Shown in pieces: positions 56,158 to 64,000 of a DNA stretch of 64,000 nucleotides. Made by a program: the position numbers and the translations under genes. Position 1 is the first letter of the stretch, and every line of letters starts with the position of its first letter. The notes below the pieces were generated by a model. It searched no databases, had not been told where the DNA came from, and worked only from the letters and a program-made list of their open reading frames with translations. Location of the stretch: positions 1 through 64,000 of the forward strand of contig NZ_JTAN02000014.1 of NCBI RefSeq assembly GCF_000949135.2, in the 5' to 3' direction. Source of the DNA: Burkholderia sp. USMB20. GTDB lineage: Bacteria; Pseudomonadota; Gammaproteobacteria; Burkholderiales; Burkholderiaceae.

Positions 56158-57618
56158 ATGCGTCTGATCCAAAAAGCACTCACTTTCGATGATGTGCTCC
56201 TCGTTCCCGCCTTTTCCGACGTTCTCCCGCGCGACACCAGCCTGAAGACCAAGCTGACCCGCAACATCTCCCTGAACATGCCGCTCGTGTCCGCCGCGAT
56301 GGACACGGTCACCGAAGGTCGCCTCGCGATCGCGATGGCGCAGCAGGGTGGTGTGGGCATCGTCCACAAGAACCTCACGCCGGCCGAGCAGGCTCGCGAA
56401 GTCGCGAAGGTCAAGCGTTTCGAATCGGGCGTCGTGCGCGACCCGATCACGGTCCCGCCGCAGATGAAGGTGCGCGACGTGATCGCGCTGTCGCGTCAGC
56501 ATGGCATCTCGGGCTTCCCGGTCGTCGAAGGCCCGCAGCTCGTCGGCATCGTCACGAACCGCGACCTGCGTTTCGAATCGCGCCTCGACGAACCGGTCAA
56601 GTCGATCATGACGCCGCGCGAGCGTCTCGTCACCGTCAAGGAAGGCACGCCGCTCGCCGAAGCGAAGGCGCTGATGCACAGCCACCGCCTCGAGCGCGTG
56701 CTGGTCGTCAACGACGCGTTCGAACTGCGCGGCCTGATGACCGTGAAGGACATCACGAAGCAGACCGAACACCCGGATGCGTGCAAGGACGAACACGGCA
56801 AGCTGCGCGCAGGCGCGGCGGTCGGCGTCGGCCCGGACAACGAAGAGCGCGTCGAGCTGCTGGTGCAGGCCGGCGTCGACGTGATCGTCGTCGATACCGC
56901 GCACGGCCACAGCAAGGGCGTGCTCGAGCGCGTGCGCTGGGTCAAGCAGAACTTCCCGCACGTCGAGGTGATCGGCGGCAACATCGCGACGGCCGCCGCC
57001 GCGAAGGCGCTCGTCGAATACGGCGCGGACGCGGTCAAGGTCGGTATCGGCCCGGGCTCGATCTGCACGACGCGGATCGTCGCGGGCGTCGGCGTGCCGC
57101 AGATCAGCGCGATCGCGAACGTCGCGGAAGCGCTGAAGGGCACCGGCGTGCCGTGCATCGCCGACGGCGGCGTGCGCTTCTCGGGCGACGTGTCGAAGGC
57201 CCTCGCGGCCGGCGCGAACGCGGTGATGATGGGCAGCATGTTCGCGGGTACCGAAGAGGCGCCGGGCGACGTGTTCCTGTACCAGGGCCGCCAGTACAAG
57301 TCGTACCGCGGCATGGGTTCGGTCGGCGCGATGAAGGACGGCGCGGCGGACCGCTACTTCCAGGACAACTCGGCGAACATCGACAAGCTCGTGCCGGAAG
57401 GCATCGAGGGCCGCGTCGCGTACAAGGGTTCGGTCAACGCGATCCTGTTCCAGCTGGTCGGCGGCGTGCGCGCGAGCATGGGCTACTGCGGTTGCAAGAC
57501 GATCGATGAGCTGCACGACAAGGCCGAATTCGTCCAGATCACCGCGGCGGGCATGCGCGAGTCGCACGTGCACGACGTGCAGATCACGAAGGAAGCACCG
57601 AACTACCACGTGGACTGA
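56158..57618 (+). CDS. guaB: IMP dehydrogenase
   Basis: GuaB oxidises IMP to XMP with NAD+, the first committed step to GMP. It has 486 residues: a TIM barrel with the catalytic cysteine C303 in GPGSICTTR, an inserted pair of CBS domains (about residues 95-203), and the mobile flap [10 protein letters not shown]. The ATG at 56158 is 27 bases from a perfect -10 element. Confidence 0.99.
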
Positions 57619-57624
57619 TCGCCG

Positions 57625-58242
57625 ATGAAACCGCTGCTGCGAGCCGTGCTGATCGTCGATGCCGTGCTGCTGCTGGCGTTCGGCGTGCTGTTCGTGCTGA
57701 CGCCCTGGCAGGCGCTGTTCAACGCGCTGCAGCTGGCGAACATCCAGCCGGCGATGCTCGGCCAGGCGTTCGGCATCGCGCTGCTCGGCCTCGCGTGGCT
57801 CGCGTTTCATGCGGCGCTCAACGGTGATCTCACGGCGCCCGTCGCACGTGCGGTCGGCCATGTGAACTGGCTGATCGGCGTGCTGGCGGTCGTGTGGTCG
57901 TTCGGCACCGGCAACGGTCCCGCGCTCGCGGCCGCCGGCCGCGTGCTGTCGGCGATGGCCGGGGTCGCGCTGATCTTGCTGGGCCTCGGCGGCGTGCGGC
58001 TGGCATCGACCGTGCGGCGGCGCGAGAAGGCGGAACGGGTGGAACGGGCGCAGGCGCCCGACGCCCGGGACGCGAAGCGCCCGGCCGAACCGGCGGTGGC
58101 CTCTGCGCCGCGGCAGCGTGTCGAACCGGTCGTCAGCCGTCCGGCGGCGCCCTCGGCGCCGGCCGCGGCCACCACGTCGGCCGCATCCGACCGCGCGTCA
58201 GGCAGCGTCGCATTCGACGCCCGCCCGCCGTTGCAGGATTGA
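57625..58242 (+). CDS. uncharacterised four-helix membrane protein
   Basis: A 205-residue protein, four hydrophobic helices (about residues 5-28, 40-60, 72-94, 98-120) followed by an 80-residue cytoplasmic tail rich in alanine, proline and arginine. No enzyme motif is seen. It starts 7 bp after guaB and lies upstream of guaA, so it is part of the gua unit, but nothing in the sequence ties it to purine metabolism. I do not recognise a named family. Confidence 0.75.
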   Translation: MKPLLRAVLIVDAVLLLAFGVLFVLTPWQALFNALQLANIQPAMLGQAFGIALLGLAWLAFHAALNGDLTAPVARAVGHVNWLIGVLAVVWSFGTGNGPALAAAGRVLSAMAGVALILLGLGGVRLASTVRRREKAERVERAQAPDARDAKRPAEPAVASAPRQRVEPVVSRPAAPSAPAAATTSAASDRASGSVAFDARPPLQD

Positions 58243-58299
58243 CCGGCGATGCGTCGCGCGAGCCGCCTGCCGCCCGACGCCGCTGTCCATGCTTTTGAC

Positions 58300-58325
58300 G
58301 CAGCGCTTCGTGCGCTGCTTTTCTT
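58300..58325 (+). terminator. intrinsic terminator/attenuator upstream of guaA
   Basis: GCAGCGC / GCGCTGC with a TTCGT loop, followed by TTTTCTT, ending 24 bases before the guaA start. It lies in the 107-bp gap after the small membrane protein gene. Confidence 0.75.
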
Positions 58326-58349
58326 ATTCTCTTCATCCCGTCCGCAGCC

Positions 58350-59969
<1,620 letters not shown>

Positions 59970-60185: not shown

Positions 60186-60839
60186 CTAGGGCAGCCGACG
60201 ACCGCCGGCATCGATCATCCTGATCGAGCCCGAAGTCTGCCCCTGTCCTTGTCGAATGCTGAATTCGATGATGTCCTCGTAGAGTTCCCGTTGTCCGGCG
60301 GGCAGGACCGGCAGCAACGTCTCGCGCCGCTTGTCCGCATCGAACATCGATTCCACGAGCCATCCCGTCAGATAGAGCGCCGCCACGCATCCGCCCGCCG
60401 TCGCAACGTTGCCGTGGCACACGAGCGGCTGGTCCGGCACCTGCAGCCCGCGATCCGTCAGTCCGTGTCGCGCGTCGGGGTGCGTCGTTGCGCGACGGTC
60501 CGGCAAATGCCCGAGCCGCTCCAGGACGAAGGCGCCCGCGCAGATCGATCCGATGTATTGGCGCGCCGGATCGAGATCGAACGACGGCAGGAAATCCGGG
60601 CTCGCGAGCGCGGCCGGGATGCCCAGCCTGCCGCTCGAGAACAGCACGGCGTCGGCGCGATTGGCTTCCTCGAGCGGGCCGTGCACGGGGATGGCCAGAC
60701 CATGCGCGGAACGCAGCAGCGGCTGCGCGCCGAGAATCCTGACACGCCAGTCCGCGGTGTTGCGGCCGAGGATGTCCCACATCAGGAACAGGTCGATGTC
60801 GGTGAACTGGTCGAATGCGACGAGAGCGATGTCTTTCAA
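60186..60839 (-). CDS. DJ-1/PfpI family protein
   Basis: A 217-residue protein with the DJ-1/PfpI class I amidotransferase-like fold. The nucleophile-elbow cysteine is C100 in GSICAGAFVLERLG; the N-terminal MKDIALVAFDQFTDIDLFL is typical. There is no HTH domain, so it is not a GATase1-type AraC regulator. Members include isonitrile hydratases and glyoxalase/chaperone-like proteins; the precise activity is unknown. It is divergent from a TetR regulator gene with a 96-bp gap, which suggests that the regulator controls it. Confidence 0.87.
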   Translation of the reverse strand: MKDIALVAFDQFTDIDLFLMWDILGRNTADWRVRILGAQPLLRSAHGLAIPVHGPLEEANRADAVLFSSGRLGIPAALASPDFLPSFDLDPARQYIGSICAGAFVLERLGHLPDRRATTHPDARHGLTDRGLQVPDQPLVCHGNVATAGGCVAALYLTGWLVESMFDADKRRETLLPVLPAGQRELYEDIIEFSIRQGQGQTSGSIRMIDAGGRRLP

Positions 60840-60935
60840 CGTGAACTCCGTGAGTCGTGGCGCCTTGCCGGAAGCGGTGGCGGCCGTGATAGAGTTCGCA
60901 GCCTATCTGCCCATGCCGCGCCATACACAGCCTGT

Positions 60936-61502
60936 ATGGCGATACCGATGCGCACATTGACTCGAAACGACTGGATCGCCGCGGGCTTCGACGCCCTCGA
61001 CGGGGAAGGGTATGCGGGGATTTCGGCCGAGCGTCTCGCACGACGGCTGAACGTGACCCGCGGCTCGTTCCATCACCACTTCCGGAATCGGGAGGACTTC
61101 GTCAGGACGTTGCTGACCGCGTGGGAGGACGATTACACCGCACGCATGCTCGCCTACGCGGCGGACGGCCGCGGCGCGGGCGACACGCTGACGCGCTACC
61201 TGCGCATCGCGGCGGAGAAGCGACCGGGGCGCGAAGTGGCGATCCGCGCCTGGGCAATGCAGGACGCGCTGGTCGCGGAATTCCAGCAGCGCGTCGATGC
61301 CACGCGTCTCGCATTCGCGCTCGAGACGTCCCGTCGGTGGGTCCCCATGCCGGGCGAAGCCGAGATCGTCGGGCAGATCGCGCACCTGTGTCTGATCGGC
61401 GGCCAGCAGGCCGGACTGCGGCGCGATGCCGAGCGGTTCAACCACTTCATGCAGCGTGCGTTCGCGTTCGCCGAGCGCATGCTGCCACGCCGACGCGCGT
61501 AG
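60936..61502 (+). CDS. TetR/AcrR-family transcriptional regulator
   Basis: A 188-residue regulator. The N-terminal HTH (GYAGISAERLARRLNVTRGSFHHHFRNREDF) is typical of TetR; the C-terminal ligand domain is all-helical and unlike its relatives, so the ligand is unknown. Two ATG codons are possible, 60936 and 60948; the first is used here, but neither has a strong ribosome binding site. It is divergent from the DJ-1/PfpI gene, its likely target. Confidence 0.87.
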   Translation: MAIPMRTLTRNDWIAAGFDALDGEGYAGISAERLARRLNVTRGSFHHHFRNREDFVRTLLTAWEDDYTARMLAYAADGRGAGDTLTRYLRIAAEKRPGREVAIRAWAMQDALVAEFQQRVDATRLAFALETSRRWVPMPGEAEIVGQIAHLCLIGGQQAGLRRDAERFNHFMQRAFAFAERMLPRRRA

Positions 61503-61647: not shown

Positions 61648-61959
61648 TCAGTCTTGTCCGCCACTACGATAACGAAGATGAATCAGTGGATAAGGCCGCC
61701 CTTGTCCATCGAGCGCCGATCGCCTGCAGCGCTCGAATCCGAGCCGTTCGTAGAATTCCGCCGCCGCTTCGTTCTGCTCGTTGACGTCGGTCGACAGGTC
61801 GGGATGGCGTCCGAGGGCCGCTTCGACCAGCCGCCGCCCGACGCCCGCGCCATGGTGAGCGGGATCGACGAACAGTGCTTCCATGTGACTGCCGTCGAGC
61901 AGCATGAAGTCGACCGGACGATCGTGCTCGTCGACGGCCAGATCGAGCTTCGCCGACGG
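61648..61959 (-). pseudogene. 5'-truncated GNAT acetyltransferase remnant
   Basis: The frame encodes the C-terminal two thirds of a YjaB-like GNAT N-acetyltransferase: LDLAVDEHDRPVDFMLLDGS, then HMEALFVDPAHHGAGVGRRL (acetyl-CoA loop, with the usual R/Q-x-x-G-x-G/A replaced by HHGAGVG) and DVNEQNEAAAEFYERLGF. The N-terminal ~60 residues of the family are absent: reading upstream meets the TGA that ends the neighbouring DUF971 gene. An internal ATG at 61905 could start an 85-residue peptide, but it would lack the first strands and helices of the fold. Most likely a decaying remnant fused to the end of the adjacent operon. Confidence 0.8.
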
Positions 61960-62301
61960 TCAGTTCGCGGGATGGCCGGATGCGGGCACGTCGGGCGCTG
62001 CGGCGCCCGCATCCGTCTCGTCTGCGCCGAGTTCCGCCAGAAACGGCCACGGATAGATGCCGCGCGCGTGACCGTCGCCGAACAGCAGGCGGATGCCGTA
62101 ACCGGCCGCTTCCACGCCGTCCAGCGTCAGGTCGGGTGGCGCGTCGACCTGCCCGCCATCGAGTCGGATCTTCCGGCATGCGGCGCACGGGCAAGCGCTG
62201 CGCAAGCGCGCATAGCCGATGCGCTGCGTGTCGCCGTCCGGCCAGCACAGCGTCAATGCGCGGGCCGCATGATCGAGCAGGATCTCGGTCGGCGGCGTCA
62301 T
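61960..62301 (-). CDS. DUF971 protein
   Basis: A 113-residue protein of the DUF971 family, found alone or as a domain of iron-sulfur or hydroxylase-linked proteins; function unknown. The cysteine cluster C37-x-C39-x2-C42 in SACPCAACRK is its hallmark and could bind metal. The C-terminal 15 residues (ADETDAGAAAPDVPAS) are a low-complexity tail. The ATG at 62301 overlaps the stop of the HEAT gene (ATGA), so the two are translationally coupled. Confidence 0.88.
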   Translation of the reverse strand: MTPPTEILLDHAARALTLCWPDGDTQRIGYARLRSACPCAACRKIRLDGGQVDAPPDLTLDGVEAAGYGIRLLFGDGHARGIYPWPFLAELGADETDAGAAAPDVPASGHPAN

Positions 62302-63260
62302 CGTGCATCTTCCCCGATCTGCGCGATCGCGATCCGCACGGCCTTGCGTACTTCGGGATCGCGATCGTCGAGCGCGTCGTGCAGCGCGGGCAGCGTCGCA
62401 GGATCGCGCAGTTCGCCGAGCGCGAGCGCGGCTTCCTTGCGCAGGTTGCTGATCGCGTGCGACAGCAGCGCGGCGACGGCCTGCGCCGCGGCGGCGTCGC
62501 GCAATTGCCCGAGTGCGCGCACCGCACGCAAGCGCACCTGCCAGTAATCGTCGTCGAGCGCGGCGACGAGCGGTGCGCGCGCGGCCGCGACACGCAGCTT
62601 GCCGAGCGTCGCGGCCGCTTCCTCGCGGACCTGCCATTCGGCGTCGCGCAGCGCCGCGAGCAAGGCGGTGACGACGGCCGTGTCGGCGGACGCCGCGAAT
62701 CCGACCGCGCCGACCGCGATACGCCGTACGTCCGCATGCGTGTCGGTCGTGGCGATGCGTGCGAGCGGCGCCAGCGCGCGGGCGTCCTTGAGCCAGCCGA
62801 GCACGGCGACGGCCTCGGCGCGCACGGCCGACGCCGGCGCGTCGAGTGCGCGCAGCGCCGGCGCGAACGCGTCGGGGTCGCGCAGTTCACGCAGCGCGCG
62901 CAGCACGGCGCCGCGCACGAACGGTTCGGCGTGCTCGACCCAGCGGCACAGCGCGGCGCCGGATGCGACGTCCTTCAGTTCGGACAGGCTGTGTGCGGCG
63001 GTCGCGCGGACGTCGTCGTCCGGATCGAGCAGCGCGCGGCACAGCGCGTCGACGACGTCGGGCTGCTCCCAGGCGGCGAGCACGCGCGCGGCTTCGCCGC
63101 GCACGTCGGCGGACGGATCGTCGCGCAGCGCGGCTACGAAGATCGGCACGAGATCGGGATCCTCGAGATCGGCGAGTTCGAGCAGCGCGATCCGGCGCAC
63201 CGATGCATCGGGTGCGGCAACGCGCGCGACGAGCGCGGTATGGTCGGAAGCAGGGTTCAT
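62298..63260 (-). CDS. HEAT-repeat protein
   Basis: A 320-residue all-helical protein made almost entirely of about ten HEAT repeats of 31 residues (for example DPSADVRGEAARVLAAW, DAEWQVREEAAATLGKL, DDYWQVRLRAVRALGQL). PBS-lyase HEAT-like repeats of this kind act as protein scaffolds. No catalytic motif or signal peptide is seen. It lies between the ferredoxin gene (38 bp) and DUF971 (4-bp overlap), which implies a partner role for the redox pair upstream. Confidence 0.9.
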   Translation of the reverse strand: MNPASDHTALVARVAAPDASVRRIALLELADLEDPDLVPIFVAALRDDPSADVRGEAARVLAAWEQPDVVDALCRALLDPDDDVRATAAHSLSELKDVASGAALCRWVEHAEPFVRGAVLRALRELRDPDAFAPALRALDAPASAVRAEAVAVLGWLKDARALAPLARIATTDTHADVRRIAVGAVGFAASADTAVVTALLAALRDAEWQVREEAAATLGKLRVAAARAPLVAALDDDYWQVRLRAVRALGQLRDAAAAQAVAALLSHAISNLRKEAALALGELRDPATLPALHDALDDRDPEVRKAVRIAIAQIGEDAR

Positions 63261-63298
63261 GTGTCGTGAGTCCGGTAGTGGGGAAGCGGCGCGCCGGG

Positions 63299-63544
63299 TT
63301 AGCGCAACAGGTACGGGATGTCGACCTTGACCGCGCCGGTCGGGCAGTCGCGTTCGCACGGCATGCAGTACCAGCATTCGTCGAACTGCATGTAGGCCTT
63401 GCCCTTGGTCACGTCGATCGCGAGCAGGTCGAGCGGGCACACGTCGACGCAGACGGTGCAGCCCTTGTCGGCGATGCAGCGGTCCTCGTCGATCGTCACG
63501 GGCGCGCTGCTGCGCAGGAAGATGTCGTGCGGGGTATGGGGCAC
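63299..63544 (-). CDS. AprB-like 4Fe-4S ferredoxin
   Basis: An 81-residue ferredoxin with two [4Fe-4S] sites: C23-x5-C29-x2-C32-x3-C36-P and C57-x2-C60-x2-C63-x3-C67-P. The widened first spacing and the segment FDECWYCMPCERDCP resemble the beta subunit of APS reductase (AprB), although the chain is shorter. The start is a GTG at 63544 with an AGGAG ribosome binding site upstream; no ATG is available at a sensible distance. It directly follows the AprA-like flavoprotein gene (17-bp gap), so the two should form an electron-transfer pair. Confidence 0.88.
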   Translation of the reverse strand: MPHTPHDIFLRSSAPVTIDEDRCIADKGCTVCVDVCPLDLLAIDVTKGKAYMQFDECWYCMPCERDCPTGAVKVDIPYLLR

Positions 63545-63561
63545 GGTAAGGCTCCTCGGAG

Positions 63562-64000
63562 TCAGAGGGCGGCCGCGTGTGCGGCCGGTTCGCGGATGCG
63601 CAGGTGCGCGTAGGCGCTGCGTTCGTCGTCGGCGAGCGGCACGACGTAGGGTTCGACCGGTCGTTTCTCGCTGCGCATCGTGCCGTCGGCACCCTTGCGC
63701 AGCCACGTGTGGCAGAACCACTCGGCATCGTTGCGATGCGGAAAGTCGACGCGATGGTGGTACAGCCCCCAGCGGCTCTCGGTGCGGAACAGCGACGCGC
63801 GCGCGGCCATTTCGGCGCAGTCGCGGATCGCGCGCACTTCGGCCGCGCGCATCAGTTCATGCGGGTGGCTCGCCTTGATTTCTTCGATATCCTCAATAAT
63901 GCCGTCAAAACGTTGCAGCCCGATTTCCATCTTGCGCGTCACCTTCGGCGGTTGCAGGTAATCGTTCACCATGCGGCGCAGCTTGTATTCGACCTGCGCC
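63562..64000 (-). CDS. AprA-like flavoprotein (fumarate reductase/succinate dehydrogenase family), partial
   Basis: Only the C-terminal 145 residues are inside the window; the gene continues past base 64000. The segment HELMRAAEVRAIRDCAEMAARASLFRTESRWG and the end (DFPHRNDAEWFCHTWLRK) match the helical C-terminal domain of APS reductase alpha subunits and related fumarate-reductase-type flavoproteins. The FAD domain and the active-site residues lie outside, so substrate cannot be judged. Co-occurrence with the AprB-like ferredoxin 17 bp downstream supports the pairing. Confidence 0.82.
   Translation of the reverse strand, partial: AQVEYKLRRMVNDYLQPPKVTRKMEIGLQRFDGIIEDIEEIKASHPHELMRAAEVRAIRDCAEMAARASLFRTESRWGLYHHRVDFPHRNDAEWFCHTWLRKGADGTMRSEKRPVEPYVVPLADDERSAYAHLRIREPAAHAAAL

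Follow-up and report, generated by a model that had tools for sequence, protein, structure and literature searches.

The aerobic routes to sulfonate sulfur, SsuD and TauD, need O2. Among described enzymes, the closest relatives of the operon analyzed here are adenosine 5'-phosphosulfate (APS) reductase, AprBA (PDB 2fja, 1jnr, 3gyx), and the 3'-phosphoadenosine 5'-phosphosulfate (PAPS) reductase of Methanothermococcus thermolithotrophicus, MtPAPSR (PDB 8a8o); for the latter, a tryptophan has been proposed to participate in electron transfer (PMC10322725). The new analysis concerns Burkholderia sp. USMB20 (assembly GCF_000949135.2, contig NZ_JTAN02000014.1, positions 1-64,000 of the forward strand; this 64-kb stretch is referred to as the window). 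Four open reading frames (ORFs) on the minus strand at the end of the window (61960-63999) encode the C-terminus of an AprA-like flavoprotein, a two-cluster ferredoxin, a HEAT-repeat protein and a DUF971 protein. Our preferred, though tentative, reading is that this operon encodes an AprBA-related flavo-iron-sulfur reductase of two subunits, which would be driven by ferredoxin and might free sulfite from an imported sulfonate-like anion.

The comparison with the known enzymes reveals both kinship and divergence. MtPAPSR is alike in combining an AprA-type alpha subunit with an eight-cysteine, two-cluster ferredoxin, and its alpha subunit is the best structural match of the flavoprotein (201.8 bits, ahead of AprA with 149.8 and SdhA with 82.2). 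It differs in the substrate loop and in the residue aligned with AprA R265, and the operon adds a HEAT protein and often DUF971 and an ATP-binding cassette (ABC) importer, in carriers that mostly have CysH as well (40 of 42). AprBA shares with the operon the closest position in the tree, the equivalents of Asn74 and His398 and a ferredoxin with an ECW tryptophan, but the flavoprotein is only about 22-26% identical to AprA, a complete relative of it (locus L003) scores 174.1 bits against the AprA family TIGR02061, under its 641.75-bit cut-off, R265 is replaced by leucine and the LRNH arginine falls in a gap.

A protein search of bacterial genomes returned 337 confirmed matches, of which the best 80 loci were kept; they belong to Burkholderia, Paraburkholderia and near relatives, one being a metagenome-assembled genome named only Burkholderiales. 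A GntR/UTRA regulator, the flavoprotein and the ferredoxin follow each other in this order in 80/80 loci, and HEAT and DUF971 are present in 79, the exception (L007) being a 3.6-kb contig that ends just past the ferredoxin. In complete relatives GntR, flavoprotein and ferredoxin come first and HEAT and DUF971 last, with a sulfonate/nitrate-type ABC importer between the two groups where one is present. The initial annotation had described the four genes, in the order found in the window, as one functional unit. Profile scans confirm all four ORFs and each family, and linkage in 79-80 of the 80 loci agrees with a single unit. Its further remark, that such a set is unusual for Burkholderia, is not supported: in a sample of 120 genomes from the family of the nearest genome, 37 carry the operon, and the guaBA-side DNA of the window recurs in 17 of the 80 loci. 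Specifically, it adjoins the operon within the flanks of those 17 loci at 93.6-96.5% identity, which gives the operon a stable chromosomal location in them. The shared DNA speaks against a recent arrival in the window's lineage, an idea that was considered and rejected; elsewhere the family is also found on plasmids. The guaB/guaA-like genes themselves were read by eye from their translations at 56158-59969 on the plus strand.

The operon is spread over Proteobacteria, cyanobacteria and actinobacteria. Relatives occur in 14/299 sampled genomes of the phylum and, at E 1e-40, in 55 plasmid records; in 49 of these the match spans 80% or more of the query, and identity falls below 60% in just two, an Ilyobacter AprA among them. 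For comparison, 31 further loci were assembled, 16 from genomes (the 14 phylum-sample matches and two from another search) and 15 selected by hand from the plasmid records. They include rhizobia, Methylobacterium, Methylocystis, Acinetobacter, Acidithiobacillus, one Cupriavidus, three cyanobacteria and two actinobacteria. Ferredoxin and HEAT are present in 31/31, with HEAT and flavoprotein forming one fusion protein in the two actinobacterial loci and the ferredoxin about 3 kb away from the flavoprotein, not adjacent, in L117, L119 and L120. In the Nostoc edaphicum locus (L117:10704-13885), two HAD proteins, a methyltransferase, a GNAT and a VOC protein lie in between. In L154 (genome G016), YeiH, GntR, flavoprotein, ferredoxin, HEAT, FdxA, importer, DUF971 and ferredoxin-NADP reductase (FNR) stand in a row on one strand.

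The flavoprotein belongs to an already catalogued family. With 1151 bits against a cut-off of 587, the complete relative from L003 qualifies fully for PRK08275 (NF006131), which NCBIfam names fumarate reductase/succinate dehydrogenase flavoprotein subunit. Identity to SdhA (23-25%) is similarly low as that to AprA, and therefore the tree and the residues, not identity, carry the argument for kinship with AprA. A first tree of 58 proteins from 75 (17 near-duplicate or N-terminally cut rows were omitted beforehand, and L149 gave no match) places 39 family members in one clade (99/99), AprA with the Ilyobacter relative in a clade of their own (100/99) and SdhA/NadB in a third group, and it separates PRK08275-type proteins plus AprA from SdhA plus NadB with 100/100 support; it has long branches (L153, L121) and came with a warning. 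A second tree of 30 of the 75 rows, with the longest branches removed, again yields this split at 100/100, with the AprA clade at 100/100 and the family rows outside it, and the approximately unbiased (AU) test rejects grouping with SdhA (p-AU 0.00054) as well as with NadB (p-AU 0.0005). The 14 family rows of the second tree fall on one side of a branch in just 60% of bootstrap trees, and AprA may attach within them; kinship with AprA is thus better supported than an exact sister-group position. The trees thereby agree with the initial annotation, which had called the flavoprotein AprA-like. Of the two outcomes that it had named as refuting, a place inside SdhA/FrdA or L-aspartate oxidase and a lack of conserved linkage in relatives, neither occurred. 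The SdhA substrate-arginine motif GANRLGxNSL is absent from the aligned family rows, and an SdhA/FrdA/NadB identity was rejected on the trees and this motif. On these sequence grounds, tree and active-site residues contradict the curated name. An AlphaFold model of the flavoprotein, based on 34 close relatives, was too poor for use (mean pLDDT, the predicted local distance difference test score, 53.6).

The active site was compared in an alignment of 44 family rows, near-duplicates included. The equivalents of AprA Asn74 and His398, which we take to be residues of the sulfite/flavin pocket, are asparagine and histidine in 44/44. AprA R265 and the arginine of LRNH presumably hold the sulfo-phosphate of APS; the first is leucine in 44/44 rows and the second is deleted in 44/44, with Arg265 kept in 12/12 AprA proteins and LRNH present in the four aligned AprA rows. 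The Lys120-Arg121-Ser122 (KRS) loop of PAPS reductase, the 3'-phosphate loop at the site where AprA and PAPS reductase contact the nucleotide, is kept in the Ilyobacter relative and replaced in 14 family rows by the longer KVHHxGxYVLPMPEG or close variants. H122, Y127, N241, W277, R320, R323 and C349 are invariant in 44/44 rows and not common to AprA. Additionally, CysH (TIGR02055) occurs in 40 of 42 carrier genomes, 35 times above the curated cut-off; these carriers comprise the 16 genomes of the further loci and 26 of the 37 family-sample matches, and G018 and G075 are the two without a match. Because both AprA arginines are lost throughout and CysH is nearly always present, a substrate other than APS is likely, as had been suspected from the window alone. 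A strict APS/PAPS reductase was rejected for the same reasons, and the enzyme appears not to be an APS reductase.

The small subunit is more uniform in motif than in family assignment. All 111 ferredoxins tested have eight cysteines and the AprB-type ECW motif. The window ferredoxin matches Fer4_7 with 36.1 bits; its 39 bits do not reach the AprB cut-off (TIGR02060, 135.65 bits), and polyferredoxins come first in the PDB ranking, with AprB third, such that it is not clearly AprB by score. Among the 31 further loci, FNR lies within 10 kb in eight and FdxA in eight, and in L108 and L155 another oxidoreductase (Pyr_redox_2 in L108) is found near FdxA. The FNR/FdxA neighbors suggest that electrons flow inward.

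The presence of a sulfonate/nitrate-type ABC transporter had been named beforehand as informative, and many complete relatives do have one: of the 79 Burkholderia-type loci that could be scored, 33 have a NitT/TauT-type importer, made up of binding protein, permease and ATPase, in the slot that separates ferredoxin from HEAT. This slot holds nothing recognizable in 44 and a remnant in two, and all 46 importer-less loci retain the flavoprotein, the ferredoxin, HEAT and DUF971. On the flavoprotein tree the trait changes at least 12 times, nine of them forced by well-supported branches, and loss and gain are indistinguishable from the tree alone. Relatives retain an N-terminal piece of the binding protein (L014), an ATPase piece behind a binding-protein start (L015) or the end of the ATPase gene (L019, L022), and the window HEAT gene starts with the importer binding protein's own ATGAACCC. 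These remnants favor losses, and the window itself shows an importer deletion junction; neither a binding protein nor a permease was found elsewhere in the 64-kb window. In the further loci, the binding protein lies within 10 kb of the operon in 15/16 genomes and 13/15 plasmid loci; the Acidithiobacillus match is weak (24% identity).

Like SsuABC and TauABC, the importer has an NMT1-type binding protein and a taurine/nitrate-type ATPase, and SsuA and TauA are the best PDB matches of the L003 binding protein. It differs from them in that this protein stays under the cut-off of all seven NCBIfam families listed for it, including SsuA_fam (121 bits, cut-off 163.5) and the taurine family (89.3, cut-off 304.25), and in that most of the tested copies end in an additional NosL-like domain (L003:10758-12161 and homologues). 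Of six proteins scanned, L116 exceeds the gathering score for this domain, L109 is just below, L110, L113 and L003 are weaker and L119 shows none. Two cyanobacterial LysR regulators of about 670 residues were also noted (L116:6673-8673, L118:6388-8424); the one in L116 weakly matches an NMT1-type binding domain (21.1 bits; the cut-off is 24.7) and perhaps senses the importer's substrate.

HEAT is the constant partner of the enzyme, and DUF971 is frequent but dispensable. The window HEAT protein matches positions 595-895 of the flavoprotein-HEAT fusion family PRK13800 (NF010374; E 6.9e-22), that is, the fusion's C-terminal part. PRK13800 bears the same curated fumarate reductase/succinate dehydrogenase name as PRK08275, for which neither tree nor residues give support. 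DUF971 is found in 22 of the 31 further loci; the three cyanobacterial loci carry an Mrp/NBP35 protein instead, which in the one scanned is a NUBPL iron-transfer nucleoside triphosphatase, and six loci carry neither. The CxCxxC motif of DUF971, present in 79/79 Burkholderia-type copies, is missing from 6 of the 22 further copies. The initial annotation's idea of DUF971 as a CxCxxC electron carrier is not supported by this result, and an obligatory CxCxxC redox protein was likewise rejected. Its alternative, that HEAT and DUF971 are assembly factors, is plausible, with indirect support from the Mrp-type iron-sulfur carrier that replaces DUF971 in cyanobacteria.

Sulfite-linked genes adjoin a minority of loci. 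YeiH (PF03601) lies within 10 kb in 5/16 genomes and 3/10 genera, with 20 YeiH copies across the 16 genomes; a rough Poisson estimate, which ignores gene clustering, expects 0.04 genera by chance (P ~1e-5). It is also near the operon in 2/15 plasmid loci and Pfam-confirmed in L116 and L168, and the YeiH queries themselves came from two of the seven YeiH loci. In Salmonella, YeiH is reported to drive sulfite resistance (PMC12880088). TauE-annotated exporters adjoin the operon in 3/15 plasmid loci, and a TSUP-family transporter lies about 6.6 kb away in L109. As raw counts with no background rate, an NtaA-type monooxygenase match is found within 10 kb in 12/80 loci and a sulfonate-type binding-protein match in 10/80. 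The YeiH gene beside the operon in G016 (C15:77113-78021) contains one in-frame TAG.

A ferredoxin-driven, sulfite-liberating reductase is suggested by the minority neighbors FNR, FdxA and YeiH. In such a model, reduced ferredoxin (with linked FdxA and FNR in some lineages) would donate electrons, to be relayed by the small subunit through its two [4Fe-4S] clusters and its ECW tryptophan to the flavin adenine dinucleotide (FAD) of the large subunit. The NitT/TauT-type importer would supply a small, non-nucleotide sulfonate-like anion, whose sulfur the flavin would then attack, and the predicted flavin-sulfite adduct would release sulfite for assimilation or export. Part of the AprA flavin-sulfur pocket would thereby be kept and the nucleotide leaving group exchanged for a small sulfonate-type anion. 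HEAT might act as a stable partner subunit or docking factor, and DUF971, or Mrp in cyanobacteria, might help to build the iron-sulfur part. The gene set, the homology, the tree, the residue pattern and the neighbors are observed. Confidence is limited because we infer the substrate, the electron direction and the adduct, as well as sulfite as the product and the parts played by HEAT and DUF971. The fuller version, an O2-independent reductive desulfonation complex derived from AprBA and driven by ferredoxin, with its own HEAT protein, cluster-assembly factor, importer and sulfite export, is possible but rather doubtful.

Several observations weigh against the sulfite-liberating reductase. With both AprA arginines lost, sulfur-directed chemistry does not follow from homology, and the His398 column, being histidine in SdhA and NadB rows too, is not specific to AprA. 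The ferredoxin is below every listed curated cut-off, HgcB (41.7 bits, cut-off 99) scoring just above AprB, and a neighboring FNR does not fix the direction of electrons. The importer is missing in 46/79 loci, and the physiological substrate may be internal or otherwise taken up. Furthermore, YeiH is absent or farther off in 11/16 genomes, a TauE-family gene is found within 10 kb in 0/16 genomes, and YeiH/TauE matches in 0/80 Burkholderia-type loci.

As an alternative, a sulfonate dehydrogenase would use the same importer and yield the same product, with FAD taking a hydride from the carbon beside the sulfonate, the intermediate losing sulfite and the electrons leaving via ferredoxin. Hydride chemistry is what the superfamily does in SdhA and NadB, both AprA arginines are gone, the invariant residues from H122 to C349 could form a different pocket and the sulfite-linked neighbors fit equally well; the AprB-type ferredoxin with its ECW tryptophan and the FNR/FdxA of some loci, however, suit a low-potential reductase better, and the SdhA motif is absent. 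We consider this explanation unlikely. A reductase or oxidase acting on a non-sulfur substrate appears improbable to a similar degree. NitT/TauT-type importers also carry nitrate, cyanate, bicarbonate and thiamine precursors, and such a substrate would be in line with a binding protein that reaches no family cut-off and ends in a NosL-like domain, as well as with sulfite exporters that adjoin few loci, but it accords poorly with the AprA kinship, the SsuA/TauA best matches and a YeiH linkage beyond the rough chance estimate.

The chances of a true APS/PAPS reductase, providing an extra assimilatory route as in Methanothermococcus, are slim. The best PDB match is a PAPS reductase and the Ilyobacter relative sits beside CysC and CysD, yet the arginine losses, the replaced KRS loop and CysH in 40/42 carriers speak against it, and neither ATP sulfurylase nor APS kinase is among the neighbors listed in 14 annotated plasmid regions, whose gene tables are incomplete. 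An ordinary soluble fumarate reductase/succinate dehydrogenase, as annotated, has little beyond the NCBIfam name of PRK08275 in its favor and is barely credible in view of the AU result (p 0.00054), the absent substrate motif, a partner that is a 2x4Fe-4S ferredoxin and the lack of any Sdh/Frd iron-sulfur or membrane subunit among the neighbors listed in the same 14 regions.

The flavoprotein family is thus already catalogued but misnamed, and the operon is widespread and apparently unstudied. No description of the gene set is among the matches listed in the open-licence literature, a weak absence; the available parts of PMC6865838 and PMC7522526 contain nothing on it, and that of PMC8557817 no fumarate-reductase-type flavoprotein. 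If the sulfite-liberating reductase is confirmed, soil, plant-associated and photosynthetic bacteria would have a reductive flavin/iron-sulfur route, which would alter the way genomes are interpreted with respect to organosulfur use. In the databases a large protein family stands under a contradicted name, and its linked genes make the correction directly testable.

Within the window, about 434 N-terminal residues of the flavoprotein lie outside, as estimated from the 579-residue relative in L003, to which the fragment is 96.6% identical over 145 residues. The fragment scores 240.5 bits against PRK08275 (profile positions 438-576 of 577; the cut-off of 587 is unreachable for 145 residues) and 60.5 bits against Succ_DH_flav_C. 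The DUF971 ORF overlaps the HEAT stop, and its product scores 66.1 bits against PF06155 (GBBH-like_N), above the Pfam gathering score of 22.8.

Table 1. Features of the operon part at the end of the window
Feature	Position	Strand	Basis and remarks
AprA-like flavoprotein C-terminus, 145 residues	63562..63999	-	PRK08275 and Succ_DH_flav_C profiles; cut by window end
2x[4Fe-4S] ferredoxin, AprB-like, 8 Cys, ECWYC	63299..63550	-	Profile scans; TTG start likely
Deletion junction, binding-protein gene leader/first codons ATGAACCC into HEAT gene	63250..63298	-	Comparison with relatives
HEAT-repeat protein, 320 residues	62298..63260	-	HEAT_2, 211.7 bits
DUF971/GBBH-like N-terminal domain protein, 113 residues, CPCAAC and DGHARGIYPW	61960..62301	-	PF06155

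Just past the DUF971 stop, a GNAT acetyltransferase remnant (61648-61905, minus strand) covers PRK10514 positions 66-145 of 147, its N-terminal part being absent; similar DNA lies further downstream of DUF971 in several other Burkholderia loci. Beyond it, a DJ-1/PfpI-type protein (minus strand) was read by eye from the translations beside a TetR-type regulator (plus strand) at 60186-61502.

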